Source: a virus. Taken from it: a DNA stretch of 34,447 nt. The first letter of the stretch is position 1; each line of letters begins with the position of its first letter. The stretch is taken from the IMG/VR virus record IMGVR_UViG_3300042868_004419, positions 1 through 34,447 of that record. One strand, 5' to 3'. The position numbers and the translations under genes were made by a program. Shown piece after piece: positions 1-30,784 of this stretch. The notes below the pieces were generated by a model. That model had not been told where the DNA came from, ran no database searches, and saw only the letters and a list, made by a program, of their open reading frames with translations.

Positions 1-878
1 AATTGCATCAATTTACGATTTCTTTTTAATATTTCCAAGTTATTTTCAAATAAATCGTAAGCTTTTGTTTTCTTTGGTTGCTCTTTGATAAATTCTAATA
101 AAGATTCAGTAGTTTGAACTACCTCTTCAGTTAATATTGGAAAGTTTTTTATAATTGTTTTTAATCCTAATCCGGGTAAACCATTTAAATTATCAGATTT
201 ATCACCGTCAATCATTCTGAAATTGACAAAGTTATGTGGGTGGATTCCGAACTCTTCTACCACTTCTGGTATATTATAGATTTTCTTTTTAGATGGTGAA
301 TAAACACTTACATCTTTATTTACCAATTGTAAGAAATCTTTATCGGAACTCATTATCACAACCTTCTCATCTTCCTTCTTTAATTGAGTAGTGATGTAAG
401 CAATAACATCATCGGCTTCGATTCCATCATAAATCATAATGGATACTGGTAAAGAAGAAAGTAATTCACCTAATCCGACCATTTGCCGTCTCATAGATTG
501 ACTTTCTTCTTCTGGATTCATTTCAACAGATGCAGCACGATTCAATCTCATTTTGATTTTGTTGTTGCCTCTATCTGCTTTATAACCAGAGTATATATCT
601 TGTCTGCTTTTGTTACCACCTTTACCATCAAATACAATGATACATCGGGTAGGATTGATTGTACGGATTGCGTAGCCGATACTTTTTAAAGTACCGACTA
701 TGCCTCCAATGTGGTCTCCATTATCGTTAAGATTTGGAGCAGTTGACCAAGAACGAATGAAGGTATTAAGACCATCAATAATTAATGTTTTGGAGTTACG
801 ATGTAAATCACCAAATTCATTATGTTCTTTATCTATTTGTTTTAGTATATCTAAATACCTTTTGTTAATCTGACTCAT
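1..878 (-). CDS. rnh: 5'-3' exonuclease / RNase H (T4 rnh-like, FEN-1 fold), 3' end cut by window
   Basis: Structure-specific 5' nuclease that would remove RNA primers and flaps during lagging-strand synthesis. At least 292 residues are visible; the C-terminus lies beyond the left edge. Seen in order: LIIDGLN near residue 27-33 (first metal-binding Asp), VFDGKGGNKSRQ followed by YSGYKADR (basic arch), GIEADDVIAYI, VIMSSDKDFLQLV, and MIDGDKSDNLNGLPGLG, the helix-3-turn-helix DNA-binding loop. These acidic clusters are the metal ligands of the FEN/T4 RNase H family. The ATG at 878-876 starts inside the end of the upstream recombinase gene (14-nt overlap), so the two are probably translationally coupled. 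It is the last visible gene of the ssDNA-binding protein/recombinase/nuclease operon. The family is certain; calling it the T4 rnh counterpart rests on phage context. Confidence 0.88.
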   Translation of the reverse strand, partial: MSQINKRYLDILKQIDKEHNEFGDLHRNSKTLIIDGLNTFIRSWSTAPNLNDNGDHIGGIVGTLKSIGYAIRTINPTRCIIVFDGKGGNKSRQDIYSGYKADRGNNKIKMRLNRAASVEMNPEEESQSMRRQMVGLGELLSSLPVSIMIYDGIEADDVIAYITTQLKKEDEKVVIMSSDKDFLQLVNKDVSVYSPSKKKIYNIPEVVEEFGIHPHNFVNFRMIDGDKSDNLNGLPGLGLKTIIKNFPILTEEVVQTTESLLEFIKEQPKKTKAYDLFENNLEILKRNRKLMQ

Positions 879-1968
879 TGCCTTCATCCGTTGTTATTTC
901 AACTTCCTCTGATGCTGATGTTTTATATTGTAAAATAGTTGCTTCGCAGATTCTACGATAGATTTGGTCTTTTAAAGACTCATCCTGTAAAATAGATACA
1001 AAGTCTTTTGATTGGAATTTGATTTCCTCTCCTGATTCAATATCAGTATATGTGTACCAAGCACCGGCTTGTTTTACTAATTTTTGGTCTTTCATAACTG
1101 AAATCCACCCACCATAGTTATCAATACCTCTATCAAAGAAAATATCAAAATCTGCGTGTCTCAAAGGAGGTCCCATTCTGTTTTTGATAACCTGACAACG
1201 AACCTTAATACCTACGATTCTATCTCCTGCTTTCAATTGTCCCATATTCTTCAATCTCAATCTAACAGATGCGTGGAATGCAAGTGCTTTTCCACCCGAT
1301 GTTGTCCACGGGTCTCCAAACATTGCGTTCATTTTCTGTCTTAATTGGTTTGTGAATACTAATGCAATAGATTGTCTACCAATCATATTGGTAATCTTTC
1401 TCATTGCTTTTGAAATGATGATTGCCTTATCAGTTGCGTAACCGTCTTTATCATAATCAGCTTCCATCTCTTTCTTTGAAGATGCTGCTGCTACTGAATC
1501 TACTACGATTGTAACTAATCTATCCTTATCACCCTTACGAACTTGCTCAATAATTGTTTCACAAGCTTCAAAAATACCCTCAACGGTATCTACTGAAACA
1601 TAAAGGAGTTTGGAAATATCCACTCCAATTGCTTCTAAAAATTCTCTACTAACTGCGGTTTCGGTATCAATCAGAACTGCAACACCACCTTTACGTTGTG
1701 CTTCAGCTAATAAATGGGCAGAGAGCAGAGATTTTCCACTCTGCTCTAAACCCGTTATTTCTGTTATTCTACCAACTGGCAATCCTCCATAAGGTCTGTT
1801 TGAGATTGCAACATCTAACATTGCATTTCCCGTTGATAACCAATCTTTGACGTTTGTCGGAGCATCCGTACTATCATCGTCTAAGAAATAGGCAATCTTC
1901 CCATCCTTATTTTGTTTGTTTAGAGAATCGGCAAGTAAACTTGCTAAATCATCTTCTCTTTTTGCCAT
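865..1968 (-). CDS. uvsX: UvsX/RecA-type recombinase
   Basis: ATP-dependent strand-exchange protein for recombination-dependent replication and repair. The 367 residues carry Walker A GLEQSGKS (73-80), DTET with the presumed catalytic Glu at about 103, Walker B LVTIVVDSVAA (151-161, Asp157), and the L2/DNA-binding region FTNQLRQKMNAMFGDP leading into TTSGGKALAFHASVRLRL (205-238). The TSGGKAL-F-ASVRL signature is typical of RecA proteins. The tail is acidic (EEVEITTDEGNESD), as in RecA. Walker A departs from the bacterial GPESSGKT consensus, as expected for phage forms. It follows the gp32-like gene by 12 nt and overlaps the nuclease start by 14 nt. T4 itself does not keep these three genes contiguous, so the order is a local arrangement. 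Confidence 0.93.
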   Translation of the reverse strand: MAKREDDLASLLADSLNKQNKDGKIAYFLDDDSTDAPTNVKDWLSTGNAMLDVAISNRPYGGLPVGRITEITGLEQSGKSLLSAHLLAEAQRKGGVAVLIDTETAVSREFLEAIGVDISKLLYVSVDTVEGIFEACETIIEQVRKGDKDRLVTIVVDSVAAASSKKEMEADYDKDGYATDKAIIISKAMRKITNMIGRQSIALVFTNQLRQKMNAMFGDPWTTSGGKALAFHASVRLRLKNMGQLKAGDRIVGIKVRCQVIKNRMGPPLRHADFDIFFDRGIDNYGGWISVMKDQKLVKQAGAWYTYTDIESGEEIKFQSKDFVSILQDESLKDQIYRRICEATILQYKTSASEEVEITTDEGNESD

Positions 1969-1980
1969 TTGTAACTAATT

Positions 1981-2847
1981 TTAGTTGTTAAATAAATCGT
2001 CAAATGCCGAAGTAACATCATCTTTTGTTGTTACCGATGCTTTTGGTGCAGGTGTGATAGGAAGTTCATCATCCCAAGGTAGTGTATCTACTACTGGTTT
2101 TGATTCTACTCCACCACCCAAATCATGTGATACCGATGGTTTTGGCTTTGGTGCTTCTAATTCAGCAACAACCTCATCACTATCACCGTTAGCTCCTGCA
2201 GTTGGGTTTAACCAATTTTCTAATACTGATTTTAATTCTGCGTAAGATAATTCAGAATACAATTCCGTAATATCTTTTTGTGCGTTCAATAATTCAGTTA
2301 CTGCTTCTGCTTCTGGTAAGATTTTAGATACCGCAGGTTTAACTCTGATTGTAGTTGTTGGGTATGCTGCATTTGATTCCTCAGCAGATACTACTTCTAA
2401 TACAATATCACGTCCTGTGTGTGGGTCTGTAATATCACCGTAATCAGGGTCTGCAATGTATCCTAAGATGTCCTGATAAACAGTTTTACCAAATCCCCAA
2501 AACTTAACTCCTTCACTTTCCTTACCTCTTACGATTACAGGTGCGAATGTTCTTAATTTTGGCTCCATCTTCTTACCTGCTTTCCAATCGTCTGTATCAC
2601 CTGTACGTTTAAGTTTTTCTGCAAACTCTACGATTGGGTCAGGTCTACCAAATGAAATTGGAGATAGATAAGTTTTGTTGTTAATATTGTAGTGAAAATA
2701 CAATTCAATAAAAGGATTGTCCTTATTAAATTTGTAAGGTACTAAACGGATTTGAGATTTTCCGTTTGCCGGTTTCCAAATTGAATCCGACTTCTTTGTG
2801 TTTGTTTGAAGAGAGCTAAATCTCTTTAATGCTAATGAAATGTCCAT
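1981..2847 (-). CDS. 32: gp32-like single-stranded DNA-binding protein
   Basis: 288-aa protein that would coat ssDNA at replication forks and cooperate with the recombinase encoded next. The N-terminal basic segment (SLALKRFSSLQTNTKKSDSIWKP) is followed by an OB-fold-like core: IRLVPYKFNKDNPFIELYFHYN, then KFWGFGKTVYQDILGYI and DITDPHTGRDIVLEV. This pattern matches T4 gp32-type proteins. A Pro/Ala/Glu-rich linker (about 215-265) leads to an acidic tip, DDVTSAFDDLFNN, the partner-binding tail typical of SSBs. There is no Cys at all, so the Zn-finger of T4 gp32 is absent. The start at 2847 follows an A/T-rich leader with a stem-loop and paired repeats that resembles the T4 gene 32 autoregulatory operator. 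No strong Shine-Dalgarno is present. Confidence 0.85.
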   Translation of the reverse strand: MDISLALKRFSSLQTNTKKSDSIWKPANGKSQIRLVPYKFNKDNPFIELYFHYNINNKTYLSPISFGRPDPIVEFAEKLKRTGDTDDWKAGKKMEPKLRTFAPVIVRGKESEGVKFWGFGKTVYQDILGYIADPDYGDITDPHTGRDIVLEVVSAEESNAAYPTTTIRVKPAVSKILPEAEAVTELLNAQKDITELYSELSYAELKSVLENWLNPTAGANGDSDEVVAELEAPKPKPSVSHDLGGGVESKPVVDTLPWDDELPITPAPKASVTTKDDVTSAFDDLFNN

Positions 2848-3797: not shown

Positions 3798-3829
3798 CAA
3801 ATATACGGAAAATATTTTACTTTTCCAAA
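3798..3829 (-). promoter_or_regulatory. Bacteroidota-type promoter, possibly giving a leaderless mRNA
   Basis: Coding strand TTTG (3829-3826), 20-nt spacer, TATATTTG (3805-3798), an exact TAnnTTTG match. Five nt separate the -7 element from the ATG at 3792, so the transcript should begin at or beside the start codon. The -33 element lies in the last codons (NLEK) of the upstream gene. Confidence 0.65.
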
Positions 3830-4224
3830 TTATCTATATTAATTGCTTTAAAAACTTTTGTAGGAATTTTTTTGTATCCGTTTGGAGATGTTGTGATAAT
3901 ACAGTTTTTGTATTCATCCCACTCTAACTGATAAGTATTATCTAACATACCACCTGTTTTCGATTTAACCACTTCGTTAAGTGCGTTGATAGTGTAGATT
4001 GTATTGGATTGTTTTTTTCTATGAACTAAAATTGTTTTCCACACAGATGGAATAGCCAAAGAACCCTTTTCTACATTAAATGTAATATAAAGTTCTCCCA
4101 AATTTGTTTTACTCTCTAATACAAAAACGTTTGGATTTGTAAGTATATATTGGTTTAGAACGAATTCTAATGATTTATCTAGTTCTTCTTTTGTGGTAAA
4201 AAGACATAATAACTGTGTATTCAT
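3817..4224 (-). CDS. Hypothetical protein, 135 aa
   Basis: Not recognised. It begins MNTQLLCLFTTKEELDKSLEF and alternates short beta-like segments (LGELYITFNVEKG, WKTILVHRKKQSNTIYTINAL, YQLEWDEYKNCIIT), suggesting a small alpha/beta fold. No catalytic motif, signal peptide or membrane segment is seen. An ATATTTAT motif lies 27 nt upstream of the ATG, so it may be expressed late, unlike its downstream neighbours. Its final codons supply the -33 element of the next promoter. Confidence 0.6.
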   Translation of the reverse strand: MNTQLLCLFTTKEELDKSLEFVLNQYILTNPNVFVLESKTNLGELYITFNVEKGSLAIPSVWKTILVHRKKQSNTIYTINALNEVVKSKTGGMLDNTYQLEWDEYKNCIITTSPNGYKKIPTKVFKAINIDNLEK

Positions 4225-6928: not shown

Positions 6929-6961
6929 ATAAATATAAAACTTTATTGTAAATGAACCAAA
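6929..6961 (-). promoter_or_regulatory. Promoter with both host-type spacing and the ATATTTAT motif
   Basis: Coding strand TTTG (6961-6958), 20-nt spacer, TATATTTA (6937-6930), overlapping ATATTTAT (6936-6929). It could be read by host RNA polymerase and by a late form. The octamer ends 23 nt before the start at 6905. Confidence 0.55.
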
Positions 6962-8202
6962 TTATCATAATTCGTTCCTTCATCTGCTTTGACAGGGAAT
7001 CCACCTTTTTCCATAATGGTCGGTAGGAGGTTCAAAATTTGTTCCCTTTCGGATGGGTGGGTGTCGATTAAGAACGCATCATATGTGTATAAGATTATTT
7101 TTGATTTCATCCCATCCATAAACTCCAACATCTCTACCATCTTCATATAGTTTATTTCAGTTTCTAATGCTTGTAGAAGATAGTTAAATATTTTTTGTTG
7201 ATTCGGTAATTCGATTCGATTATGATTAATTTCCCTTTTAAATAAAGGTGTCGTTAATTTACCCGAAATTACATACCGTTGATACAAACTTTCAATGTAT
7301 GAATCTACTTTTTGAAAGAACGGTATCCCTCTTGCAAAGTCGTCTAAACCTCCATACAAATACTTAAAGGTTAATCCTTTTGCAGTATCGTAATCACACC
7401 CATAATGGTTTGCAAGGTATTGGTGAGCAGATATACCCGTAGGAAACTTATACCCTATCAACCCCGCGATTAAACGGATGTGATACGATTCATAATCAAA
7501 TCCAATTAAAGTTCCTTCCTCAAATCTACTTATGATAGTTCCCCTACTCCCATCGCCTTTAGGAAGAGCAGAGTAATTTACGTTTAAGTGTCTATTGGAT
7601 GGTCTACCCGTAATGGTATATGGATTGTATTGTGTGTGTACCCTACCCTCATTGATGTATCTATAATCGAAGCTAAATCTATCAATAAAATTTTCCACTT
7701 CGACTTGAACCCCCGCCCCTTCCACTTTTCCTAATAGAGAGATTGAATCCGAATACTTACGATACCAATCCTTTATCTCAAAACCTTCAGGTATTGATTT
7801 TAAGAGTTCGTACCACTTCATAAGAGGAATACAGTCGTTGTTGAAAAGATAATCATTTCTATACCCCTTAAAAAGAGTTTCTACAAAATCATTAAATACA
7901 AAAGGTTTACCTACTGATTCAAAATATACCCACTCATAATCAAGTCCGTTTGATTGGATATATCGGTTTCCTAATACTAATGTGTTTGGATTGCAGAGTT
8001 TAGATATTGGGAATGGTGTAACGGAATCTGCATCGATGTGTTGGAAATTTAAAATAAAATCCGTATCTTTGGTTTTTATATATACAAATGAAATTGGAAA
8101 CATTGATTGATGTCCCCTTTGAGAACTCCATACAGGAACTATCAGTAAAATCTCCTCTGGATTTAGTAAGTGTAAATCTTTATCTGTTTCAATTATATTC
8201 AT
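6943..8202 (-). CDS. Compact family-A DNA polymerase-like protein
   Basis: 419 aa with the ordered landmarks of a Pol I-type palm. TGRPSN (198-203) and NVNYSALPK correspond to the TGR..S..PNLQ.IP segment. Motif A is FDYESYHIRL with Asp236. Motif B is TAKGLTFKYLYGG with Lys275, Phe279 and Tyr283 aligned to the RR..K...FG..YG helix. LPNQQKIFNYLLQALE resembles the downstream Q-helix, and motif C is YTYDAFLID with Asp375. The two catalytic Asp are kept, but the motif A Glu is His, the first motif B Arg is Tyr and motif C HDE is YDA. The protein is far shorter than T7 or Pol I enzymes and shows no clear 3'-5' exonuclease signature. Activity could be real, specialised or lost. T4 itself uses a family-B polymerase. 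Confidence 0.7.
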   Translation of the reverse strand: MNIIETDKDLHLLNPEEILLIVPVWSSQRGHQSMFPISFVYIKTKDTDFILNFQHIDADSVTPFPISKLCNPNTLVLGNRYIQSNGLDYEWVYFESVGKPFVFNDFVETLFKGYRNDYLFNNDCIPLMKWYELLKSIPEGFEIKDWYRKYSDSISLLGKVEGAGVQVEVENFIDRFSFDYRYINEGRVHTQYNPYTITGRPSNRHLNVNYSALPKGDGSRGTIISRFEEGTLIGFDYESYHIRLIAGLIGYKFPTGISAHQYLANHYGCDYDTAKGLTFKYLYGGLDDFARGIPFFQKVDSYIESLYQRYVISGKLTTPLFKREINHNRIELPNQQKIFNYLLQALETEINYMKMVEMLEFMDGMKSKIILYTYDAFLIDTHPSEREQILNLLPTIMEKGGFPVKADEGTNYDNLVHLQ

Positions 8203-8207
8203 ATCTA

Positions 8208-8238
8208 CAAAGATACAAAAAATAATTCACATTTCAAA
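8208..8238 (-). promoter_or_regulatory. Bacteroidota-type promoter for the polymerase-like gene
   Basis: Coding strand TTTG (8238-8235), 19-nt spacer, TATCTTTG (8215-8208), an exact TAnnTTTG match. Only 5 nt separate it from the ATG at 8202, the same spacing as at 3798, again predicting a leaderless or near-leaderless mRNA. Confidence 0.65.
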
Positions 8239-8240
8239 AT

Positions 8241-8615
8241 TTATTTATGAAATTGTAAAATATTAGGTAAATATAATCCTAAATTTTTTATCTTTTCTGC
8301 ACCCAATCGTATAGATGCAGTATTTGCATTAAATATACCTTTATCCATAACCATACCATTATCATTATATACCATATCTAATGGTCCTGCTATTCTCCAA
8401 TAAATACTTTCAGATAACCAATATGGGTTTTTTAATAATTGTATATAAGTTTTTTCATCTATCTCATATACGAATCCATTTATATCGTTTGCTTTTTGAG
8501 TAAAAAATCTTTCTACAAAACCTTTAGCATAATCGGTTTCCGTTGGCGATGGTACAATCGTCTGTGGTATAAACAATGATGGTAGTTCTCTATCTTTAAT
8601 TAAATCTGTGTACAT
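8241..8615 (-). CDS. Small structural protein downstream of the baseplate hub gene, 124 aa
   Basis: Starts MYTDLIKDRELPSL at 8615, two nt after the stop of the hub-like gene; an ATG further upstream (8663) would overlap that gene and is not preferred. Visible segments are PTETDYAKGFVERFFTQKAN, YEIDEKTYIQLLKNPYW and SIYWRIAGPLDMVYNDNG. The ETDY..G...R.F pattern and the WRI.GPL segment recall small conserved proteins of the tail module in T4-like marine phages. Translational coupling to the hub gene suggests a baseplate role. No enzymatic motif is visible and the exact T4 counterpart is unknown. Confidence 0.55.
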   Translation of the reverse strand: MYTDLIKDRELPSLFIPQTIVPSPTETDYAKGFVERFFTQKANDINGFVYEIDEKTYIQLLKNPYWLSESIYWRIAGPLDMVYNDNGMVMDKGIFNANTASIRLGAEKIKNLGLYLPNILQFHK

Positions 8616-8617
8616 TA

Positions 8618-10876
8618 TTATATTTGTTTTCTTAACCAATCGGCAGTAATTGTAGTTAGCCAACCTTCTGCGTTAATTCCTTGTTGTATTGATGTAATTT
8701 GAAAACATCCGTTTTGATTATATACTTCTGGAACCCCATCTATAAGAAAATAGTCCGCAGTAGCAAGTCCTGATATACCATCAATTGCAATAGTAACAGT
8801 TATACCAGAAACTAAAACTGTATCTGGTGCCGGTGTTTTTACCAAATAATATTTTAATAAAGATTCATCTGTATAGATTAAATTATGTTTGTCATTACCA
8901 ATTTTAAATCTAACAAAGGTTTTATCTAAAGATTCATTAGCTTGTTTTACTTTTTCCGTTTTTGCTTTTTCTTTTGCTACTTTAGCTTCATTCAATTCTT
9001 TATCCGATGGTTTTTTGGCATCTTTTGCATCTTTTGCAGCATCTTCCTGTTTTTTCCTATAAAGTTCTTTTTGTATTTTAACTTCAATCGGATTTATAGA
9101 ATGAAAACCATCTGCATTTTTAAGAGTTTTCATATCTGCATTTTCAGCTAAATTTTGCTTATATCTTAAATTTTCAGATTGTTGAGTACCACTATCCTCC
9201 GTTGCTTCTGAAATTTCTAATTGAGATGCATACAAAGTTTGTCCTGCCATCATATCACTCATTTGAAAATCAAATGAAAATGTTTGTACAATTGAATTTG
9301 TTGGTCCAATTTTAAATCTATATGTAGGAGAGTTTGGTGTTGGAGTAAATACTCTTGGTAATTTTCTATCAATAATTGTTAATCCTTGATTTGAATTTGA
9401 ACTACTATCTGGAGTTGATAATTCAAGATAGGAATACCCATACATACTCATTTGAATTAAAGTTAAAAGTTCGTATAATAAATCTGAATTTTTAATTGAA
9501 TTCTTTTTTAAATCTGCAAATCTTTCATAATTTATAAATACATTTAATAAATTACCAGTATAAGCAGGTAATTCTATGTTAGTTGGGTCTGTTGGTAATT
9601 TAAAATTAGTAATTTTCGCACCACTATCATCCAAAATAAATGAATAACCGTTTATTAAAGATTTTTTTCCATCGGAAACTTTGAATGTTTGTTTTTTTGT
9701 TTTAGGGTCAGTAACTTTTATATGCCCAACTTTAATGTTTCCATCAATATCTACATTTATATCAGGTAATGTTCCGGGAAAAATAACATTTTCGTTAGAT
9801 GACATCATAAATTTTGTGGCAGATACTGGTAACACTTTATTATCACCAACCGTACCACATACTATATTAGGTGAAAGATGTAACGAATTTATAATTTCTA
9901 ATATTAATCTAAACGAAATGTAAGGAGTTTTTGATATTGTGTTATCTTCTGCTTTTTTCTCTTCTATACCCCAATTAAAAAATTCCTTTTCCCATTTTTT
10001 TGTATCTTTAAAAGTTGTCAATAAGTTGGTATCTATATCTTCTGCAATTTTTGTAATATATGATTTTACATCACCTTTTACTACTTTTGCACTTTTTTTA
10101 CCTTCTGATTTTGAAGATTGACTAAGTAATTGAGATGCTAATTCGTTTCCTGCTGATATTTCTAAACTTACATTATATGTTCCATCTGCATCAACCGAAA
10201 ATGAATAAGTTAAAACTTTACCCGTCCAAACGTCATAATTACCCTTTGTATCTTCTAATTTTTTTAAATATGTTTTTTTATTAGCTGCCCATTTTTCCTC
10301 CAATGGAGAATACACATTTGTAAATTCTTCTACAAAAGATTTCCATTTATTTTTTGGAAATAAATTATTTTGAATTTCATTAGTATTGGTAGTTAAATCT
10401 GAATTATTTCCATATTCTAATAACAATTGCATACCTGGTCTTAAAAAAAACATTTCAAACATTTCCAATTGTTTTAGTGAAAATACTTTTATGTTTAATT
10501 TTGCCGTTTTTAATACTGCGTTTTCACCACCATCTTCAATTTGCAAATCAATAATTAAAGGTACTGATAATTTTCTGTTTGATTCACCGATTACTTCAAT
10601 TGCTTTTCCATCTAAATCATATCCTACAATGGTATTACCGGTTTGATATAATTTACCAATATCCGTTGTATTTGATAAAACACACCCATGATATTTTGCA
10701 TTATATTTTTCATCTACAATCATATCTACACTATGTTCGGTAGTTGTTACAACGGCGGGGGATGTTAATATAACAAATGGTTGTGTTTTAATTAATCTAC
10801 CAGGGTTACTAGCTCTTAATTCTAATTCGTTTGTAATCCACTTTTTTATGGGTTGGATATATGGAATTGCGGGCAT
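8618..10876 (-). CDS. Baseplate hub-like protein (gp27/gpD-type), 752 aa
   Basis: Large protein encoded between a gp53-like wedge gene and a small structural gene. The N-terminal half has beta-rich repeats with INIKVFSLKQLEMFEMF-type helices, LRPGMQLLLEYG, and VWTGKVLTYSFSVDADGTYNVSLEISAGNEL (about 213-243), a pattern I associate with tail hub beta-barrels. A Lys/Glu/Ala-rich helical insertion lies at about 590-650. The C-terminus, GCFQITSIQQGINAEGWLTTITADW, matches the (F-x-I/V-T-S-I-x-H.....W-T-T) ending of hub proteins such as T4 gp27 and P2 gpD. Hub proteins join the tail tube to the spike. No lysozyme domain is visible, unlike T4 gp5. Family assignment is by pattern and needs structure comparison. 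Confidence 0.5.
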   Translation of the reverse strand: MPAIPYIQPIKKWITNELELRASNPGRLIKTQPFVILTSPAVVTTTEHSVDMIVDEKYNAKYHGCVLSNTTDIGKLYQTGNTIVGYDLDGKAIEVIGESNRKLSVPLIIDLQIEDGGENAVLKTAKLNIKVFSLKQLEMFEMFFLRPGMQLLLEYGNNSDLTTNTNEIQNNLFPKNKWKSFVEEFTNVYSPLEEKWAANKKTYLKKLEDTKGNYDVWTGKVLTYSFSVDADGTYNVSLEISAGNELASQLLSQSSKSEGKKSAKVVKGDVKSYITKIAEDIDTNLLTTFKDTKKWEKEFFNWGIEEKKAEDNTISKTPYISFRLILEIINSLHLSPNIVCGTVGDNKVLPVSATKFMMSSNENVIFPGTLPDINVDIDGNIKVGHIKVTDPKTKKQTFKVSDGKKSLINGYSFILDDSGAKITNFKLPTDPTNIELPAYTGNLLNVFINYERFADLKKNSIKNSDLLYELLTLIQMSMYGYSYLELSTPDSSSNSNQGLTIIDRKLPRVFTPTPNSPTYRFKIGPTNSIVQTFSFDFQMSDMMAGQTLYASQLEISEATEDSGTQQSENLRYKQNLAENADMKTLKNADGFHSINPIEVKIQKELYRKKQEDAAKDAKDAKKPSDKELNEAKVAKEKAKTEKVKQANESLDKTFVRFKIGNDKHNLIYTDESLLKYYLVKTPAPDTVLVSGITVTIAIDGISGLATADYFLIDGVPEVYNQNGCFQITSIQQGINAEGWLTTITADWLRKQI

Positions 10877-19874: not shown

Positions 19875-21623
19875 TTATTTGTAGTTTGGAGAGAAATAAT
19901 CATATACCTGGTCTACTAAGGCTAAAGTTTGTAATGTGTTATAAAACAATACTGGTCCGATTTGTCCATTCCAAAATGATGTTCTTGCACTATTTGAACC
20001 TATCGTTACATAGTTTGTAGATGATGGTGCAGTAAATGCTGCTGAGGTAAGTATTCCTACTGATACACCATCTACATATATTGTACAAGTACCACTTGGT
20101 TGGAATGCCGCTGAAATCATATACCAAACATTTGATGATAATGATGTTGCTAATTGTGCACTATTTCCTAATGTACTACCATAGAATTTAACTCTATTTA
20201 AAGTAGAACTATCGGTTGATTCAATTGCTAAACCATAAAAACCTGCATAGTCAAAAATGTGTCTTGTAGTTGTACCCAATGTTGTTGTAGGTCTTACCCA
20301 AACGTGAATAGTACCTGTATTAGTATTAAATTGAGAAATACCACCATTAACATTTGATGCGGTATCTTTATAGAACAAATCACCACCATCAAAAGAATAA
20401 TATCTTTCTTTTCTACTTGCACCACTATTGTATGCTGGGTTTGAACTTGCTCTTGATAGAGGGCCCTGTGCTCCAGGTCTAACACCCGTACCATACCCAC
20501 TCATATCCAATAAATCCACCGTTGGTGTACCGGTTGCAGGTAGAGAACCTGCTGCAAATGATGCAGTTTTAGCAGGCTCTAAATACATTCTTAATCCAGA
20601 TGCAGGAATAGATGGTTGTGTGGTTGTTCCTTTGTTGTGTGATATTGTACCATTTGCCAAATAAACGTCAGCATTCTCCACATTAAGTGTTACAATTTCA
20701 ACATCTTCTATTATTTTAGCAACATCATATACCAAAACTTCAACTAAACCACCATTTTCATCATAAGTTAATACTGAATCTCCTGGTAATATAGTTTCTA
20801 CTATTTTAAAGTGATATTTTTGTGTTTCAAAATCAAACACATATAATGGGTGAGTTCCAGTTGCTTTTATTAAACCATTGTTAATATTATAATATCCACT
20901 TGCAAAATTAAATGTAATATCAGATACAGTTACATCTTGATATTCACCTGCTGCGGTCTCCGAATTAAACATTCTCCATTCTGTTGATTCTGTATCTGTA
21001 CCATCTAATGATTCATCTGGCAATCCTGCTGGCACCCATGCTTTAATTACATCACCAACTGCCAAATCTTCTACATTTACAACAGTATTATCTGCTTTTG
21101 TTACCGGAGTATCAAATAATAAACAGAAATCAGTTTGGTTAATTGTGTTATAAACATCAACTGCGTATAATGTTTTTGTAACAGTAGAGTTATAATTGGT
21201 TGCCGCAGTATTAAAACCATCGTTATAAGTCATTGATAAAACGGATTGTGCTTCCGAATATGTTGATACTGCTATTGATGCAGGTGTTACTGGAAAAGAT
21301 GGAGTTGCTCCTAATGTTGCACTACCAACCGTAAAGTTTGCATTATTAAATGATACTGTATAGTTTGCAGCTACACTACCAACTCTTGTACCATGAGCAG
21401 CTCCTGCACTTCCAAATGTAAATGTGGCGTTTTCTGCAGTACTTTCTACAATATATGTAAAAGTTGGTGGAGTTACTGTTACTGAATCAATTGCAAATGA
21501 ACCAAATGAAACTTGCGTTCCAGCTGCAGCATTTCTTGCATTTAATGATGATTCTTGTGAAGTTCTTGCTGAACCTACAGTTGCTCTGTATAAATTTCCT
21601 AAAGATAAATTAGTTTTTGGCAT
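19875..21623 (-). CDS. Tail adhesin with embedded Hint (intein-like) domain and C-terminal LamG-like domain
   Basis: 582 aa. Residues 1-166 are beta-rich and Ser/Thr/Ala-rich, probably the virion-attached part. A Hint domain spans about 167-330: Cys167 in DFCLLFDTPV with VEDLAVGDVIKAW (block A), ATGTHPLYV with His258 (block B), KIVETILPGDSVLTYDE, and VTLNVENADVYLANGTISHN ending in His329-Asn330 (blocks F/G). The next residue is Lys331, not Cys/Ser/Thr, so standard intein splicing is unlikely and a bacterial-intein-like cleaving domain fits better. Residues 340-582 look like a LamG/concanavalin-type jelly roll (LRMYLEPAKT, YYSFDGGD, GTIHVWVRP, WYMISAAFQPSGTCTIYVDG, WNGQIGPVLFY), probably carbohydrate-binding. 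No homing endonuclease insert is seen. Confidence 0.8.
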   Translation of the reverse strand: MPKTNLSLGNLYRATVGSARTSQESSLNARNAAAGTQVSFGSFAIDSVTVTPPTFTYIVESTAENATFTFGSAGAAHGTRVGSVAANYTVSFNNANFTVGSATLGATPSFPVTPASIAVSTYSEAQSVLSMTYNDGFNTAATNYNSTVTKTLYAVDVYNTINQTDFCLLFDTPVTKADNTVVNVEDLAVGDVIKAWVPAGLPDESLDGTDTESTEWRMFNSETAAGEYQDVTVSDITFNFASGYYNINNGLIKATGTHPLYVFDFETQKYHFKIVETILPGDSVLTYDENGGLVEVLVYDVAKIIEDVEIVTLNVENADVYLANGTISHNKGTTTQPSIPASGLRMYLEPAKTASFAAGSLPATGTPTVDLLDMSGYGTGVRPGAQGPLSRASSNPAYNSGASRKERYYSFDGGDLFYKDTASNVNGGISQFNTNTGTIHVWVRPTTTLGTTTRHIFDYAGFYGLAIESTDSSTLNRVKFYGSTLGNSAQLATSLSSNVWYMISAAFQPSGTCTIYVDGVSVGILTSAAFTAPSSTNYVTIGSNSARTSFWNGQIGPVLFYNTLQTLALVDQVYDYFSPNYK

Positions 21624-22636: not shown

Positions 22637-24001
22637 TTAAGAACCTATTTGTGCTTTTAACTCTTCTATTTGCTTTTGTTGTTCTTTAATCGCTTCTACC
22701 AATAAACCCATCATTTTAGAATAATCTAACGCTAAGAAACCATCTTCTCTAGTTTTAATTACTTCTGGTAAAACTTCTTGAACTTCTTGTGCTATCAAAC
22801 CCGTCTTTGGAGTTGATTTTGTTACTTCATTTACATCATCATTCCATTCCCAAGTTACACCATTTAATTTAGATACTTTATCTAATGCGTTTGGAATAAT
22901 TTGAATGTTATTCTTATGTCTCTTATCTGAAGTAAAGAATGCCGTAATATCACCTGTTGCAGTAATAGTTCCGTTAATGGTTAAGTTACCATGTGTTACT
23001 GCCGAAGTTGTTAATAATGCTTGGTTAATTATTGTTCCATATCCAGTTGTAGAAGATATAGTTACTTGCGAAGAACCTGATACAGTTCCGGTTGGTAATA
23101 ATGGAGTTACTTGTGTAGAACCTGAAACTACACCCGTTGGTAAGTTTGCAATCGTTTGTAGTGAACTCGAAACTATACCACCTGGAATACCAGTTATTGA
23201 TGTGTAATTTACTTGTGATGAACCCGAAAATAGTGTTCCAAGTGCACTTCTAATTTGGTCAGAGGTAACTGAACTACCCAATGCGGTGGATGTACCTGCT
23301 ATTGTTATTGAACTATTTGTTAATTGTGCGTTTCCAATTCCTGTTACTTGTGATGAACCACTTACTATTCCTGCTGGTATAGAAGATATATTTGCGTATG
23401 TAATTTGTGATGAACCAGTTACTATTCCACTTCCACCTAATATTTGTGAAGAACCCGATATTACACCATCCGTATTAATTTTAGTTTTAATCGTTGTATC
23501 GATTGAACTTGTAAATGAATTTAAATTTGTTATAGATGTATTTGATGAGCCCGTTGCAGCTTCTAATGCGGTTAATGTTGCTGCACTTAATGATTTTACA
23601 ACACTTGTACCTTCTACAAATTTAATTGAACCGGTTGATATATAAAGGTCTCTCCAAATTTTATCAGCAGAACCTAAATCAAATGCGTTTGTTGTTTGTG
23701 GAATAAGAGATGAACTCAAAGATGCTACAACATTTACAGTATCAGCAGTTGCATCACCAATTGTGATAGCTCCACCTAATGTTAAATTACCATCAATTTT
23801 CGCATTTCCCGTAATATCCAATGATGAACCCGAAATTCCAGCGAATGAACCCTGACTTCCTGTTCCGGAAGCTCCTAGTGTAATATCACCGGTTGCTCCT
23901 CCAATTTGTAATGTTCCTAAGTCTGTATTTACATACGGCTCTCCGAATGCTAACGAACCAGATTTTTGTGCGTTCGTCCCACGTCTAAATTTAAGTCCCA
24001 T
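22637..24001 (-). CDS. Tail fibre with C-terminal S74 self-cleaving chaperone, 454 aa
   Basis: The N-terminus GLKFRRGTNAQKSGSLAFGEPYVNTDLGTLQIG is the RRGT...GE...TD...L-IG module common to phage receptor-binding proteins. The shaft consists of repeats around (I)SGSSQVT and P-x-GIVSGSSQ. The C-terminus is an S74 intramolecular chaperone: SDKRHKNNI with Ser358 and Lys363 as the expected catalytic dyad, TGLIAQEVQEVLPEVI, LDYSKMMGLLVEAIKEQQKQIEEL (trimeric coiled coil). In this family the chaperone trimerises the fibre and then cuts itself off. A late-like motif is 52 nt upstream. The glycosyltransferase gene begins 3 nt after this gene. Confidence 0.85.
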   Translation of the reverse strand: MGLKFRRGTNAQKSGSLAFGEPYVNTDLGTLQIGGATGDITLGASGTGSQGSFAGISGSSLDITGNAKIDGNLTLGGAITIGDATADTVNVVASLSSSLIPQTTNAFDLGSADKIWRDLYISTGSIKFVEGTSVVKSLSAATLTALEAATGSSNTSITNLNSFTSSIDTTIKTKINTDGVISGSSQILGGSGIVTGSSQITYANISSIPAGIVSGSSQVTGIGNAQLTNSSITIAGTSTALGSSVTSDQIRSALGTLFSGSSQVNYTSITGIPGGIVSSSLQTIANLPTGVVSGSTQVTPLLPTGTVSGSSQVTISSTTGYGTIINQALLTTSAVTHGNLTINGTITATGDITAFFTSDKRHKNNIQIIPNALDKVSKLNGVTWEWNDDVNEVTKSTPKTGLIAQEVQEVLPEVIKTREDGFLALDYSKMMGLLVEAIKEQQKQIEELKAQIGS

Positions 24002-24060: not shown

Positions 24061-27033
24061 CTATTTATTTTCTAATCGTTTAATTTTTGCTGATAATTCT
24101 TTGATTGCTTCAATTAATAATGGAACTATTTTTTCATATTGAACTGCTTTGTATCCGTTATCTCTATTTGTTACGATTTGTGGAAGTATTGATTCAATTT
24201 CTTGTGCAATTACTCCAATATCATTTCCTTTGTGAGAGTGTATTTCATCATATCCTTCTTTCCAATCATATGTATTACCACTAATCGATTCAACTTTTTC
24301 TAATGCGTTTTGAATTGGTTGGATATTTTCTTTTAATCTAATATCCGATGAGTAAAATGCAGTAATATCATTAGTTGCTCTAATTTCACCTGCTAACGCT
24401 GATGCGGCAGTTCCAATACCCAATGAATTAAATTGATAATCACCAGATGAACCACTATGAATTGCAGTTCCGCCTAATACTTGCGATGAACCCGAAACTA
24501 TACCACCTGGAATAGATGAAATACTTGTATATGTTATTTGTGATGAACCACTAACTGTACCGTTAGGTAAATGTGCTATTGTTTGTGTCGAACTACTAAC
24601 TATTCCCGCTGGTATTGAACTAATACTTGCGTATGTAATTTGAGATGAACCACTAACTAATGTAGGTAATGAACTAATACCACTAAAAGTAATTTGAGAT
24701 GAACCACTAACAATATTAGCAGGTATAGAACTAATATCTGCGTATGTAATTTGAGATGAAGATGATACAACATTATCTCCACCTGCTCTTAGCAATTTGG
24801 ATTCAGCATCCAATGGTCCTGCTTTCCAATAATCGTTTGTTGTATCCCATAGTAATGAACCAGAAGTAAGTGTTCCAGTTGCATCTCTAACTACTAAACC
24901 TGCATTTGCTGAACCTGCTCCATTTAATTGGATAATGTTATCTTTAATATTAAGAGTTGTACTATCTATAATAGTTGTAGTTCCTAATACTGTTAAATTT
25001 CCCGCTAATGAAACATCTGTTCCAGATACAGTTATTGCCCCTCTTAAAGATGAAGTATATGAGTTTAAAGATGTAATATCATTTGCTATAGAACTACTAA
25101 ATGTTGAATAGTTAGTTGTTGCCGTAATATCAACTTGTGATGAACCCGAAACTATACCACCTGGAATAGATGAGATACTTGTGTATGTAATTTGAGATGA
25201 ACCAGATACTACTCCTGTTGGTAATATTAATGTAATTTGAGATGAACCACTAATCACACCCGTTGGTAATAATGGAGTTATTTGAGAACTACCACTTACT
25301 ATACCTCTACCGTTTGTTTCGTATGATGAAGTTGCTGCTTCTATACTATTTAATCTACTATTTGCAGATGCAGTAAATAATTCAATATTAGTAAATTTTG
25401 AATTTAAATCTAATCCACCAAATGCAATTGAGTTTATATAAGCTACACTAGCACTAAGAGTTAATACTCTTGAATCTACCGAAGTTGAGTATCCATTAAA
25501 AAATCCAGAACCTGTCCACGAATTTAATGATGCCGTTACTGAATTTATTTGATTAATAGATGCACTATGTGATGCAGATATAGCTTCTAATGCTATTAAT
25601 TTATTGTCTATTCCACCACTCCATGCATTTGCAGATGATGTGTATGATAATAAAGATGCACTTACTGAATTTAATTGTCCAATTGAAGAACTAACCGATG
25701 CAGATGTGTTTTCTAAATTATCTAATCTAATTTTAGTAGATGCAGTAAATTCGTTTGTTCCGAATATACTTGCAGTAAATGCATTTAATGAAGAAGTAGT
25801 TTGATGAATACTTGCTAAATCACTATCTACGGATGAAGTATAAGTAGATAGTGTATTATTTTTGTTATCTTGTGATTGAGTAAATTGTCCTAATAATGAA
25901 ATAGAATTATCTACACTTGCAGATTTACTTTGTAAGTTGCTTAATCTACTATCTACCGATGTTGAATATACAGTTACACTATCACCATTCAAACCAACAA
26001 CTGTAGATGAACTAATTGAACCAACTACACTTAAATTTGTATTAATTGCAAATCTTGTATTAGTATGTTCCCAACTCATTGAAACATTTGCTCCTGCTAT
26101 TTCGAATCCAGAACCATCTGATAATAACGATGTTGTAGAACCACTTGATAGAGTTAATAATTTATCCTCTATGTAAGTATTTGTTGTATTTAATGATGTT
26201 TGTGTACCATCTACAATTAAGTTTCCTATTATTCTTGTATTTCCACCAGTTACATCGATTGCAGTTTTTAATGAGTGAGTATATTCGTTAATAGAAGATG
26301 TGTGCTCATATATAGATTGAGTAAAAGTATTCATTGAACCAGTATATGATGCAATTACTATATCTTTAAATTCTTGAGAAGATGTAAAGGTATTTATTGA
26401 ACCAGTATATGATGCAATTGCTAAATCTTTTGCTTCTTGAGATGATGTAAATGATTGTAAAGATGCCGATGCTAATTGCAATTGGTCTAATCTACTATCC
26501 ACACTACCAGTATAAATTGCTAATGTTGAATTTTTAGTTTCTTCCGAAGAACTAAATGAGTTTAAACTTGCAGTTGAATCTTGTAATCTATCTAATCTAC
26601 TATCTACCGATTCAGAAAATGTGGTTATATTAATACCATTTACGCTACCCGTAAGAGAACCCGATAAACTATTTGCATAAACTACACTCCATTTTGCAGA
26701 GTTATTACCTACATCATATAGATTATTAGTACCAGGAATTAAATTTGTAGTAAATACACCTAATGCAGAAATATTATCCGATTGGTTGTTTCCTAAAAAT
26801 AAATTACCAGAAATGGCAACATCTCCACTAAAATATGCGTTTGATGCAGTAAGGTTTCCTGTTAAATTGATATTACCAACTGAGGATGTATTTAATGCAA
26901 GTAATGTGATAGGATTTCCATCACCAATTGATACTTGTAAAGAGTTTTTTCCTTTGTGTAAATATAATTCACCATCTAATATTGAAGATGATATATCAGA
27001 TGTTCCTCTTCTAATTTGAAATATAGCTGCCAT
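24061..27033 (-). CDS. Long tail fibre with S74 self-cleaving chaperone, 990 aa
   Basis: The N-terminus AAIFQIRRGTSDISSSILDGELYLHKGKNSLQVSIGDG is the same RRGT...GE...IGDG module as the other fibres. The shaft has many copies of S-VDSRLDxLQxxSASLxSFTSS (about 150-560), then GIVSGSSQITY-type repeats (about 570-860). The S74 domain carries SDIRLKENIQ with Ser896/Lys901, DIGVIAQEIESILPQIV and a final coiled coil (LLIEAIKELSAKIKRLENK). The two repeat systems suggest trimeric beta/coiled-coil shafts. Some shaft DNA is identical to that of the 1025-aa fibre. It is preceded by an ATATTTAT motif 21 nt upstream. Confidence 0.85.
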   Translation of the reverse strand: MAAIFQIRRGTSDISSSILDGELYLHKGKNSLQVSIGDGNPITLLALNTSSVGNINLTGNLTASNAYFSGDVAISGNLFLGNNQSDNISALGVFTTNLIPGTNNLYDVGNNSAKWSVVYANSLSGSLTGSVNGINITTFSESVDSRLDRLQDSTASLNSFSSSEETKNSTLAIYTGSVDSRLDQLQLASASLQSFTSSQEAKDLAIASYTGSINTFTSSQEFKDIVIASYTGSMNTFTQSIYEHTSSINEYTHSLKTAIDVTGGNTRIIGNLIVDGTQTSLNTTNTYIEDKLLTLSSGSTTSLLSDGSGFEIAGANVSMSWEHTNTRFAINTNLSVVGSISSSTVVGLNGDSVTVYSTSVDSRLSNLQSKSASVDNSISLLGQFTQSQDNKNNTLSTYTSSVDSDLASIHQTTSSLNAFTASIFGTNEFTASTKIRLDNLENTSASVSSSIGQLNSVSASLLSYTSSANAWSGGIDNKLIALEAISASHSASINQINSVTASLNSWTGSGFFNGYSTSVDSRVLTLSASVAYINSIAFGGLDLNSKFTNIELFTASANSRLNSIEAATSSYETNGRGIVSGSSQITPLLPTGVISGSSQITLILPTGVVSGSSQITYTSISSIPGGIVSGSSQVDITATTNYSTFSSSIANDITSLNSYTSSLRGAITVSGTDVSLAGNLTVLGTTTIIDSTTLNIKDNIIQLNGAGSANAGLVVRDATGTLTSGSLLWDTTNDYWKAGPLDAESKLLRAGGDNVVSSSSQITYADISSIPANIVSGSSQITFSGISSLPTLVSGSSQITYASISSIPAGIVSSSTQTIAHLPNGTVSGSSQITYTSISSIPGGIVSGSSQVLGGTAIHSGSSGDYQFNSLGIGTAASALAGEIRATNDITAFYSSDIRLKENIQPIQNALEKVESISGNTYDWKEGYDEIHSHKGNDIGVIAQEIESILPQIVTNRDNGYKAVQYEKIVPLLIEAIKELSAKIKRLENK
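24488..25173 (-). repeat. Identical DNA repeats within and between fibre genes (GSSQ shaft units)
   Basis: The segments 24488-24519 and 25142-25173 agree almost completely over 32 nt, and their first 29 nt are identical to 31757-31785 in the 1025-aa fibre. They encode the GIVSGSSQ-type shaft unit. Near copies occur in the 454-aa fibre around 23162. Such repeats offer sites for recombination between fibres. Confidence 0.75.
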
Positions 27034-27084: not shown

Positions 27085-27678
27085 TTATTTGTAACTATCT
27101 CCCCCTACCCATAAAACTAAACTTTTTCGTATTCCTTTTGTTATTGGAGTTACTCTATGAAGTAAAAATGATGGAAAAAGAATTGAAGTTCCTTTTAATT
27201 TTTCAACTTTTTTAAAATCACCACCTGACCAAATTTCTAAATCACCTCCTTCATAATCATTTGGGTCTGAAAGTTGTATTGTTATACTAATTTTTCTGTG
27301 ATTGATTAAACCTGGTCCAATATCTAAATGCCAATCATAATGCCCGCCACCTTCGTAATATTCGGTATATTGTATTGAATCTACAATTGAATGTAAATTG
27401 AATTGCCAAATTTGTGAATTTGCATCAATTACTAAATCTTTTAATTTATCATATAACCAATCAGAATATTCATCATAATGAATCCATTTTATTTTAGATT
27501 TTCTAATAGCATTTTCTGGTGTTTCTTCATTTGAAATAACTTTTGCATCTTGATATGGATATAGATTTTTTAAATTATCAATCCACATTAATTCTTCTTC
27601 GGAAAATGTATCTGTATATCCAAAATAATTTGTTTGGTCTATTTTTGGGTTTGTTTGAAATATTGGTTTTACGTTCAT
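27085..27678 (-). CDS. 2-oxoglutarate/Fe(II)-dependent oxygenase (prolyl-4-hydroxylase fold)
   Basis: 197 aa. The HxD...H...R iron and 2-oxoglutarate ligands are visible: HYDWHLDIG (His117, Asp119), FPSFLLHRVTPI (His174) and GIRKSLVLWVGG (Arg184). YYEGGGHYDWH and YEGGDLEIWSG are typical of the P4H/PiuC-like group. Substrate cannot be read from sequence; hydroxylation of a protein side chain is the family norm. The gene starts 6 nt after the halogenase-like gene, with fibre genes on both sides. T4-like cyanophages often carry a 2OG-Fe(II) oxygenase near tail genes, so this may be a fibre-modifying enzyme. Confidence 0.88.
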   Translation of the reverse strand: MNVKPIFQTNPKIDQTNYFGYTDTFSEEELMWIDNLKNLYPYQDAKVISNEETPENAIRKSKIKWIHYDEYSDWLYDKLKDLVIDANSQIWQFNLHSIVDSIQYTEYYEGGGHYDWHLDIGPGLINHRKISITIQLSDPNDYEGGDLEIWSGGDFKKVEKLKGTSILFPSFLLHRVTPITKGIRKSLVLWVGGDSYK

Positions 27679-27684
27679 AACAAA

Positions 27685-29253
27685 TTATTGTAGTATATAT
27701 TTAATAAATTCACTATGTTTTATAAATGAACCTGTAGTACTTAATTTTAAATTTTGTTTATACTTGCGTATATGTATTAATATTTCATCTCTACGAGTAC
27801 TCATTGCCAAACTATCTAGTAATTCTTGAGCCTTATTTATATCAAATAATTCTAATCCTGCTAAAATACTATACCAGCTAAGTAAATTATATATCCAATA
27901 ATTTTTACCATTTTCAAAGAAAAATATACTATTAGGTATTGTTAATTTACATTCATTTAATAATTTTATAATACCTTCCGGTGCGGTAGTTTTATTTTTA
28001 AATTCTGTCCAAAATTTACTTGATGTTCGTTTTGTTAAATAATGTAGATATATAAATTCTAAAGTTTCATTATTAATTGATTCAACACTTTTATTATAAC
28101 GATTTCTATAATATTCGTTGTCTGGATTAATTCCTAAAAAATTATCTAAAAAAATATCCAATGATATTGCTTGATTCATTATTGATGTTGCTTCCAATGG
28201 TTCAACAAATCCGGAAGACAAACCTATTGCAATGCAATTATTAACCCATGATTTTTCATAATATCCCGCTTCAAATTCAAATGATTTTCCAAATGATATG
28301 TCATTACCAAATGTTTTTATTATTTCGTCTTTTGCTAAATCTTCTGTAATATAATTAGAGTCGTACACATACCCACATCTAAATCCAGTTTGAAGAGGTA
28401 TTTTCCACACCCATCCAAAATCCATAGCTATTGATTCAGTATAAGGTGGAATTTCATTTTCATCTTCAAAATCCATTGAGAATCCAATAGCCCGTTTCAT
28501 AGGAAGGTGTTCTTTATATGAAATCCATTTAGTTTTATATAACCCACCAATAACTAATTTTTTAAATCCTGAACAATCAAATACAAAGTTTGTTGGGTAT
28601 TCTTTACCACTTTTTGTATGGATGAATTTTATATATTCATTTTCACCTAATGAAAAATCAACTACTTCATCATCCACATACTCAACACCACGTTTAATAG
28701 CAACATCTTTTAAAAAATTAGCCATCAATGTTGCATCAAAATGAATAGCATTTGGACCTATACTATCAAAATGAGAAATAGGGTCATCTAATTTATTATG
28801 TGGATTTAAATTTAATGTTTTTTTTATTAAATTTGATTTATGTAAATCAACATCTATAAGAACACTATCCAAACTATTACCTCTAGTAATTTCATCTAAT
28901 AATATTGGAGGAAAGCTGCAATTTGTTTTATTATCAAAAAGTGTTGGATTAAACCAATCTTTGTTATTGAATATGTGGTGGTAGCTTTTGCCATCACCAT
29001 TCCAATTAGTAAATTTAATGGCTTCTTTAACAGTAGCATTAGTATATTTATAAAAATCACTTTCGCTTATTCCAAGTTTAACTAATAAATTTAATACATT
29101 CGAAGTTGTACCTTCACCCGCTCCTAATATACCAATATCTGAACTAGATATTACTCTTATAGCACAATATGGGTAATATTTTTCAAGGTATAATGCGGTC
29201 AACCATCCAGATGTACCTGAACCAATTATTGTAAATATGTATTTATTTTTCAT
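27685..29253 (-). CDS. Flavin-dependent tryptophan halogenase-like enzyme
   Basis: 522 aa. IIGSGTSGWLTALYL (9-23) is the GxGxxG FAD-binding site. ATVKEAIKFTNW places Lys80 at the position of the catalytic Lys79 of PrnA. GWVWKIP (280-286) is the WxWxIP motif diagnostic of flavin-dependent halogenases, and GFVEPLEATSI carries Glu354 near the second catalytic site. FDCSGF and GAGEGTT are also family features. The family chlorinates or brominates Trp or other aromatics using FADH2 from a partner reductase; no reductase is seen here. Halide use and substrate are unproven, since related phage proteins have not, to my knowledge, been assigned a substrate. It shares a unit with the 2OG-Fe(II) oxygenase. 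Confidence 0.82.
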   Translation of the reverse strand: MKNKYIFTIIGSGTSGWLTALYLEKYYPYCAIRVISSSDIGILGAGEGTTSNVLNLLVKLGISESDFYKYTNATVKEAIKFTNWNGDGKSYHHIFNNKDWFNPTLFDNKTNCSFPPILLDEITRGNSLDSVLIDVDLHKSNLIKKTLNLNPHNKLDDPISHFDSIGPNAIHFDATLMANFLKDVAIKRGVEYVDDEVVDFSLGENEYIKFIHTKSGKEYPTNFVFDCSGFKKLVIGGLYKTKWISYKEHLPMKRAIGFSMDFEDENEIPPYTESIAMDFGWVWKIPLQTGFRCGYVYDSNYITEDLAKDEIIKTFGNDISFGKSFEFEAGYYEKSWVNNCIAIGLSSGFVEPLEATSIMNQAISLDIFLDNFLGINPDNEYYRNRYNKSVESINNETLEFIYLHYLTKRTSSKFWTEFKNKTTAPEGIIKLLNECKLTIPNSIFFFENGKNYWIYNLLSWYSILAGLELFDINKAQELLDSLAMSTRRDEILIHIRKYKQNLKLSTTGSFIKHSEFIKYILQ

Positions 29254-30752: not shown

Positions 30753-30784
30753 TAAAGATACTAATTATTTTTTATTTTTCCAAA
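30753..30784 (-). promoter_or_regulatory. Bacteroidota-type promoter for the glycine-rich adhesin gene
   Basis: Coding strand TTTG (30784-30781), 20-nt spacer, TATCTTTA (30760-30753). The -33 lies in the NLEK codons that end the 1025-aa fibre gene, as at 3826. The leader would be about 10 nt. Confidence 0.6.

Follow-up and report, generated by a model that had tools for sequence, protein, structure and literature searches.

A compact divPolA1-type family-A DNA polymerase in a virus population that also encodes a gp43-like family-B polymerase

The virus record analysed here is a fragment of 34,447 bp, in the following called the window. It encodes a protein of 419 amino acids that a preliminary description had read as an unusually compact and degenerate family-A DNA polymerase (PolA). 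The locus raises the question which kind of polymerase this is, whether it is the only one of its virus and which work it could do.

The gene and its predicted fold

The open reading frame starts with an ATG at position 8202 of the minus strand and ends at 6943 (Table 1). The preliminary description had given no strand; the plus-strand frame over the same positions contains many stops and is not open. The protein carries a TGR motif at residues 198-200, followed by D236 and H241 (in place of Glu) in motif A, Y271 (in place of Arg), K275, F279 and Y283 in motif B, and Y374-D375-A376 (in place of HDE) as motif C. Its match to Pfam DNA_pol_A (PF00476) reached 35.5 bits (E 6.9e-9), which exceeds the curated cut-off of 34.3. 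This was the only Pfam match, a DNA_pol_B domain being absent, and a PHROG 'DNA polymerase' match was obtained at 1.4e-14. For seven pairs of compact polymerases we found dN/dS values of 0.06-0.16, i.e. the gene is under strong purifying selection. Together with several hundred equally long viral homologues these data bear out the earlier reading of a real family-A polymerase with the motif residues named above.

Table 1. Features of the polymerase locus. Positions refer to the window unless residues of the 419-aa protein are given.
Feature	Position	Strand	Basis or remark
UvsX-like recombinase	865..1968	minus	PHROG UvsX-like 1e-75, Pfam RecA 4e-61
gp32-like SSB	1981..2847	minus	Pfam gp32 8e-16, PHROG SSB
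'NTQLLC' protein, 135 aa, candidate partner	3817..4224	minus	found together with the compact polymerase in every group
divPolA1-type compact family-A DNA polymerase, 419 aa	6943..8202	minus	family matches, predicted fold, motif alignment
Exonuclease-type domain, shrunken, catalytically degenerate	residues 1 to ~115		structure comparison
Short thumb region (predicted)	residues ~120-195		
Palm and fingers: motif A D236..H241, motif B K275/F279/Y283, motif C Y374-D375-A376	residues ~196-419		
Bacteroidota-type promoter-like element TTTG-N19-TATCTTTG	8208..8238	minus	ends 5 nt before the ATG
Conserved 124-aa gene directly upstream of the polymerase	8241..8615	minus	same-place homologues in window and Mel-JY01 groups and in LR756508
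Tail/baseplate-hub-like gene, 752 aa, starts the conserved order	8618..10876	minus	upstream homologues in LR756508 and Mel-JY01 groups

An AlphaFold2 model built with 47 homologues had a mean pLDDT of 93.5 and a pTM of 0.89. Foldseek returned the Klenow fragment, the Bacillus fragment and Pol nu as top matches (best E 3e-17). With VIA-align, model residues 1-415 were placed on residues 301-875 of the Bacillus Pol I large fragment (Z 26.8, rmsd 3.8 Å over 393 residues, 16% identity). The structure prediction that had been proposed as a check thus yielded a Pol I palm and a model that can be aligned to Pol I large fragments from end to end. The protein shares with the large fragments of Klenow, Bacillus and Taq the fold over these 393 residues, the motif order and the core of Asp, Lys, Phe, Tyr, Arg and Gln residues. 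It differs from them in being ~160 residues shorter, in the replacement of E710 by His, of R754 by Tyr or other residues and of H881-D-E883 by YDA, in having the 5' nuclease in a separate gene and in being accompanied by a second polymerase of the phage. Only ~80 residues separate the exonuclease-type domain from the TGR motif.

The N-terminal part was also considered separately. When modelled alone, its 120 residues gave a moderate pLDDT of 79. DEDD 3'-5' exonuclease domains ranked first in Foldseek, and the exonuclease domains of phage G20c Pol I and Klenow ranked first in VIA, both with modest scores (best E 7e-3 and Z 6.3-6.7, respectively). In combination with the whole-chain alignment, these scores support a predicted shrunken exonuclease-type domain. 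A profile comparison of the N-terminus with the Pol I exonuclease aligned the polymerase part only, such that the assignment of this domain rests on structure. In the alignment of the domain the DxE motif was absent and only H31, Y41 and H55 were invariant; PF01612, present in the full-length PolA of Flavobacterium phage vB_FspM_immuto (immuto), did not match the window polymerase. Lacking the DEDD catalytic carboxylates, the protein is probably not a proofreading Pol I. A dead exonuclease-type domain is also found in the Pol I of Bacillus and Taq. The earlier statement that there is no clear exonuclease domain therefore holds for the catalytic residues, but not for the fold, since residues 1 to ~115 form a small degenerate domain of the DEDD-exonuclease type. 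A separate proofreading subunit encoded beside the polymerase gene was considered and dropped, the short neighbouring genes matching no exonuclease family.

Relatives and active site

A divergent PolA that occurs beside a regular PolA, B or C was named divPolA1 by Yutin et al. 2024 (Virol J 21:200, PMC11348598), who described it for 14 phages, among them immuto, whose genomes measure 155-190 kb; a short thumb, an inactivated exonuclease and conserved replication genes were given as its features. Several of these 14 proteins were absent from the collections searched here. The window protein is a member of this family and its lineage is thus already described; we regard the membership as near-certain. 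It is homologous to the immuto protein (tblastn 9e-33), has the conserved palm residues and an inactivated exonuclease-type domain, and comes from a virus with a regular polymerase and with replication genes downstream (see below). Compared with divPolA1 of immuto (gene 1) it has a similar length (419 vs 441 aa), the same Klenow-like palm with catalytic Asp, an apparently short thumb and a dead exonuclease-type domain, and both have the conserved downstream replication genes and a regular polymerase and fall into one 100/100 clade. The two differ in sequence (26-32% identity), in the partner polymerase, which is of family B (gp43-like) for the window and of family A for immuto, and in the two virion-like genes that precede NTQLLC in the window. 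In the literature searched, the name divPolA1 was found only in Yutin et al. 2024 and its preprint, and no experimental test of divPolA1 was found.

Relatives are widespread among viruses. One scan of viral contigs gave 128 loci, with complete proteins of 418-424 aa where read, and a profile scan gave at least 572 loci. The immuto-like group comprised 312 and the Mel-JY01-like group 109 loci, counts that may overlap and include near-copies. The median lengths were 421, 441 and 404 aa for the window, immuto-like and Mel-JY01-like sets, respectively. Overall the family extends to roughly 1,000 viral contigs. In 85,000 genomes of bacteria and archaea, matches were limited to two MAG contigs, labelled Flammeovirgaceae and Rickettsiaceae, which may be phage contigs. 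The groups of compact polymerases are mutually only ~27% identical. In a tree they form one clade that includes the window and immuto proteins and is separated from six full-length PolAs with 100/100 support, while long branches and few outgroups leave the place of this clade among the PolAs unsure. The divergent lineage that had been considered earlier is hence a deeply diverged branch of family A. The known T4-like outlier RM378 was examined as a possible carrier of the same protein and set aside: it is not among the tblastn matches listed (40 of 67). In its first 50 kb the annotated 'DNA polymerase' p024 looks like a split family-B exonuclease (FDIET) and p012 like a 5' nuclease.

Active-site residues were compared in Klenow numbering across 230 distinct compact polymerase proteins. 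The equivalents of R668, D705, K758, F762, Y766 and Q849 showed no variation, and the equivalent of D882 was invariant in all 228 proteins that cover this site; D236, D375, K275, R200 and Q344 of the window protein lie at such invariant positions. At the position of E710, the sugar gate, His was found in 230 of 230 proteins. A profile-profile alignment with full-length PolAs confirmed the register of the motifs (probability 99.1, E 1.9e-18). Judged from these alignments, the sugar-gate His of motif A is a true signature of the compact polymerases. In Klenow, R754 is an Arg that contacts the dNTP phosphates. Its position was occupied by Tyr in 178 of the 230 proteins, by Arg in 6 and by other residues in most of the rest, so that loss of the motif B Arg is common but not universal in divPolA1. 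A divergent subgroup (L439/G034 and L440/G035) retains this Arg in the motifs DRDEIK and DRNEVK. For the H734 position two alignments conflict in the Mel-JY01 group. Motif C read YDA in 224 and YDS in 4 of the 228 proteins covered. Six full-length PolAs, among them the second one of immuto, retain both E710 and R754 but have Glu, Ser or Gln at the E883 position, such that the exchange of the motif C Glu for Ala means little by itself.

With R754 lost in most members, the sugar-gate Glu always replaced by His and the motif C Glu replaced by Ala or Ser, catalysis may be slow, changed or lost. If it is lost, the polymerase fold would serve as a DNA-binding, scaffold or regulatory protein that, for example, binds primer-templates and recruits SSB or UvsX. 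The exchange of the motif A Glu is fixed, the losses of the motif B Arg and of the motif C Glu are nearly so, and the exonuclease site is gone, as such a protein would allow. However, both metal-binding Asp residues and the equivalents of Lys, Phe, Tyr, R668 and Q849 are invariant over groups of ~27% identity, as catalysis would require, and the motif C Glu is also missing in full-length phage PolAs, e.g. those of the Herelleviridae (Ser). We therefore consider a catalytically dead protein quite unlikely.

A second polymerase and a conserved gene order

An intact gp43-like polymerase, for which the preliminary description had proposed a search, was found in the same virus population. Contig G010 (48,001 bp) matches the window over 27,634 bp at 99.989% identity and runs 20 kb further. 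On the same strand, 18.6 kb downstream of the compact polymerase, it encodes an 852-aa gp43-like family-B polymerase (PolB) with an exonuclease domain and with all six motifs intact (exo I DIE, exo II, exo III, DLTSLYPS, KILLNSMYG and YIDTDS). Genes for the large (phrog_168, 5e-84) and the small (phrog_225, 3e-16) clamp-loader subunit lie close to it, and a DnaB-type helicase and a PF02739 5' nuclease are encoded farther off. The possibility that the compact polymerase is the sole polymerase of a phage without gp43 is ruled out by this contig. An intact PolB in the same population argues that the compact polymerase is accessory, as had been suggested before.

A second polymerase was present in 26 of 26 records long enough to judge, two of which are immuto isolates of one kind. 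The partner is a PolB in G001, G004, G007, G008, G010, G011, G015, G036, G031, G035, Mel-JY01, G024-G028, G030 and the jumbo phage LR756508. In the immuto group (W03, G017-G023) no PolB was found and the partner is a full-length PolA of ~780-800 aa, whose exonuclease residues are intact where read (immuto). In the long relatives the partner lies 16-26 kb downstream. Thirteen records had no second polymerase (G002, G003, G005, G006, G009, G012-G014, G016, G029 and G032-G034). They end at or before that place, all within ~21 kb downstream of the compact polymerase gene, and are therefore uninformative rather than counter-examples. The PolB of LR756508 (L124, 255000-272000) is split over two frames of 1,017 and 621 aa that lie ~3 kb apart, possibly owing to inteins or introns; the PolB of G026 is likewise found in two frames.

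Where the available DNA suffices, the genes around the compact polymerase follow a fixed order: hub, 124-aa gene, compact polymerase, NTQLLC, SSB, UvsX and 5' nuclease. The nuclease is of the type (PF02739) found at the N-terminus of bacterial Pol I. Downstream of the compact polymerase NTQLLC was found at 171/171 informative loci, SSB at 119/119, UvsX at 85/85 and the 5' nuclease at 74/75, near-copies being included in these counts. The order is the same in the 484 kb genome of LR756508. In the converse search from relatives of the SSB, a compact polymerase was located at most 9 kb upstream in 26 of 28 cases and just beyond in the other 2. In the immuto group BLAST detected the 124-aa gene in only 10 of 68 cases, and the 752-aa hub-like gene has no Pfam family match. 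That the polymerase gene sits between tail and virion-like genes, as stated earlier, is correct for its immediate neighbours; the gp32-like SSB and UvsX genes nevertheless follow 4 kb downstream on the same strand.

NTQLLC lies ~20-30 bp from the compact polymerase in two groups, while in the window two virion-like genes separate them. Among 50,697 phage records it occurred only in six, all of which carry divPolA1, and it matches no Pfam or PHROG family. The protein of the window contains an invariant HRKK..NT.YTIN.LN block. A two-subunit enzyme of the compact polymerase and the ~130-aa NTQLLC, which would act as a processivity or DNA-binding subunit and offset a short thumb, with the sugar-gate His altering nucleotide choice (e.g. 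tolerance of ribonucleotides at primer junctions), is conceivable but unlikely.

The constant company of SSB, UvsX, 5' nuclease and helicase across groups in which the other polymerase switches family could mean that divPolA1 is the central replication enzyme, be it for the lagging strand, for initiation or as main replicase, and that the 'regular' polymerase is variable or auxiliary. Since it is the context of divPolA1 that is conserved, Yutin et al. lean to a role in replication (PMC11348598). Against a central role stand the predicted lack of proofreading and the apparently short thumb, as fidelity and processivity would be required for genomes as long as 150-480 kb, and the fully intact PolB of the window's virus close to clamp-loader genes. 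We consider it unlikely.

The preliminary description had also assigned the gene its own host-type promoter. The element upstream of the ATG has a form that we take to fit the Bacteroidota promoter consensus (TTTG-N19-TATCTTTG). Of 65 distinct upstream regions in the window group, 30 carry such an element at a similar place, about -36 to -38; in the Mel-JY01 group it lies farther upstream in 9 of 51, and in the immuto group it was seen in none of 51. A genome-wide signal of Bacteroidota promoters was dropped, since matches to this form in the whole window (4) were close to the number expected from shuffles (2.6). Only the conserved position thus speaks for the element, which makes a promoter of its own plausible. 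Given its distance from the ATG, the transcript could be leaderless.

Among the other genes of the window, all on the minus strand, a flavin-dependent tryptophan halogenase (27685-29253, Pfam 6e-94) lies among tail-fibre genes and adjoins a 2OG-Fe(II) oxygenase (27085-27678, 1e-14), a pair that is unusual as phage cargo. A tail-fibre-like protein (19875-21623) has a C-terminal laminin-G-like domain, and inspection by eye suggests a Hint/intein-like block in its interior (CLLFDTPVTKADNTVVNVEDLAVGD ... NGTISHNKG), with Pfam reporting no intein. Long fibres rich in SGSSQ repeats are encoded at 30772-33849, 24061-27033 and 22637-24001; the two that were tested both end in an intramolecular chaperone (Peptidase_S74), and one has a collagen-like stretch.

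Possible role and relation to known polymerases

From these data we infer, with somewhat better than even confidence, that the compact polymerase is an active, non-proofreading, Pol I-like gap-filling or recombination polymerase that serves a gp43-type replisome. Catalysis is predicted from the Klenow-like palm with the metal-binding D236 and D375, the Lys, Phe and Tyr of the fingers, R200 and Q344. Having an exonuclease-type domain without catalysis and an apparently short thumb, the enzyme should make short stretches of DNA without proofreading. Bulk replication would be left to the separate, complete gp43-like PolB and its clamp loader. The compact polymerase is encoded together with SSB, UvsX, a Pol I-type 5' nuclease and a helicase, and from this company its most likely job would be Pol I-like. 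It could fill gaps after primer removal by the 5' nuclease (lagging-strand maturation) and/or act at single strands and junctions made by UvsX. The phage system would thus be a split version of the work that bacterial Pol I does in one chain. This role is suggested by the gene neighbourhood and by analogy to what is established for Pol I, T4 RNase H, gp32 and UvsX. T4, however, has a 5' nuclease and gp43 and does without a PolA, which counts against gap filling. In addition, with virion genes adjoining it and a promoter-like element of its own, the gene of the window may not be expressed together with SSB and UvsX.

The loss of the exonuclease and of most dNTP-phosphate contacts and the location with UvsX and SSB would also suit a translesion or mutagenic polymerase that bypasses damaged templates after UvsX-dependent restart. 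Pol I-like enzymes of family A without special inserts are, however, usually poor bypass polymerases. The present protein is shorter than Pol I large fragments and has no inserts, and no damage-inducible control element was identified. A translesion function therefore appears improbable.

Two further types of phage PolA resemble the compact polymerase. The divPolA2 of barbaviruses is likewise a second, exonuclease-less PolA beside a regular PolB. By its published description (Yutin et al. 2024) it is set apart by the lack of a recognisable thumb, an unrelated N-terminal domain and variable neighbourhoods, whereas the layout of the window protein is that of Klenow and its neighbourhood is fixed. 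The PolAs of Herelleviridae (Listeria List-36/A511, Bacillus BM15) show 22-25% sequence similarity, and List-36 (L357) has the local order PolA, small gene, SSB and UvsX. In contrast to the compact polymerase they are long (~722 aa in List-36, where another piece of polymerase lies upstream, and 1,038 aa in BM15) and have the canonical E710 and R754, with Ser at the motif C Glu. The similar gene order could point to an origin of divPolA1 from a replicative PolA that was part of a module of this kind.

New in the present analysis are the size of the family, the sugar-gate His and the YD(A/S) of motif C, the strong purifying selection, the fixed gene order with its constant NTQLLC neighbour and the gp43 with clamp loader in the window's own population. 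The puzzle is that a phage with a complete proofreading replicase retains a second polymerase that probably lacks proofreading. Being widespread and kept under purifying selection while the main replicase swaps family, divPolA1 is a good place to ask for the unique job of a small polymerase. Its fixed neighbours name the candidate partners, i.e. the 5' nuclease, SSB, UvsX and NTQLLC, and a cultivated host-phage pair exists with Flavobacterium sp. LMO8 and immuto. It would also be of use to polymerase engineers, as a family-A enzyme in which His occurs naturally at the position of E710.
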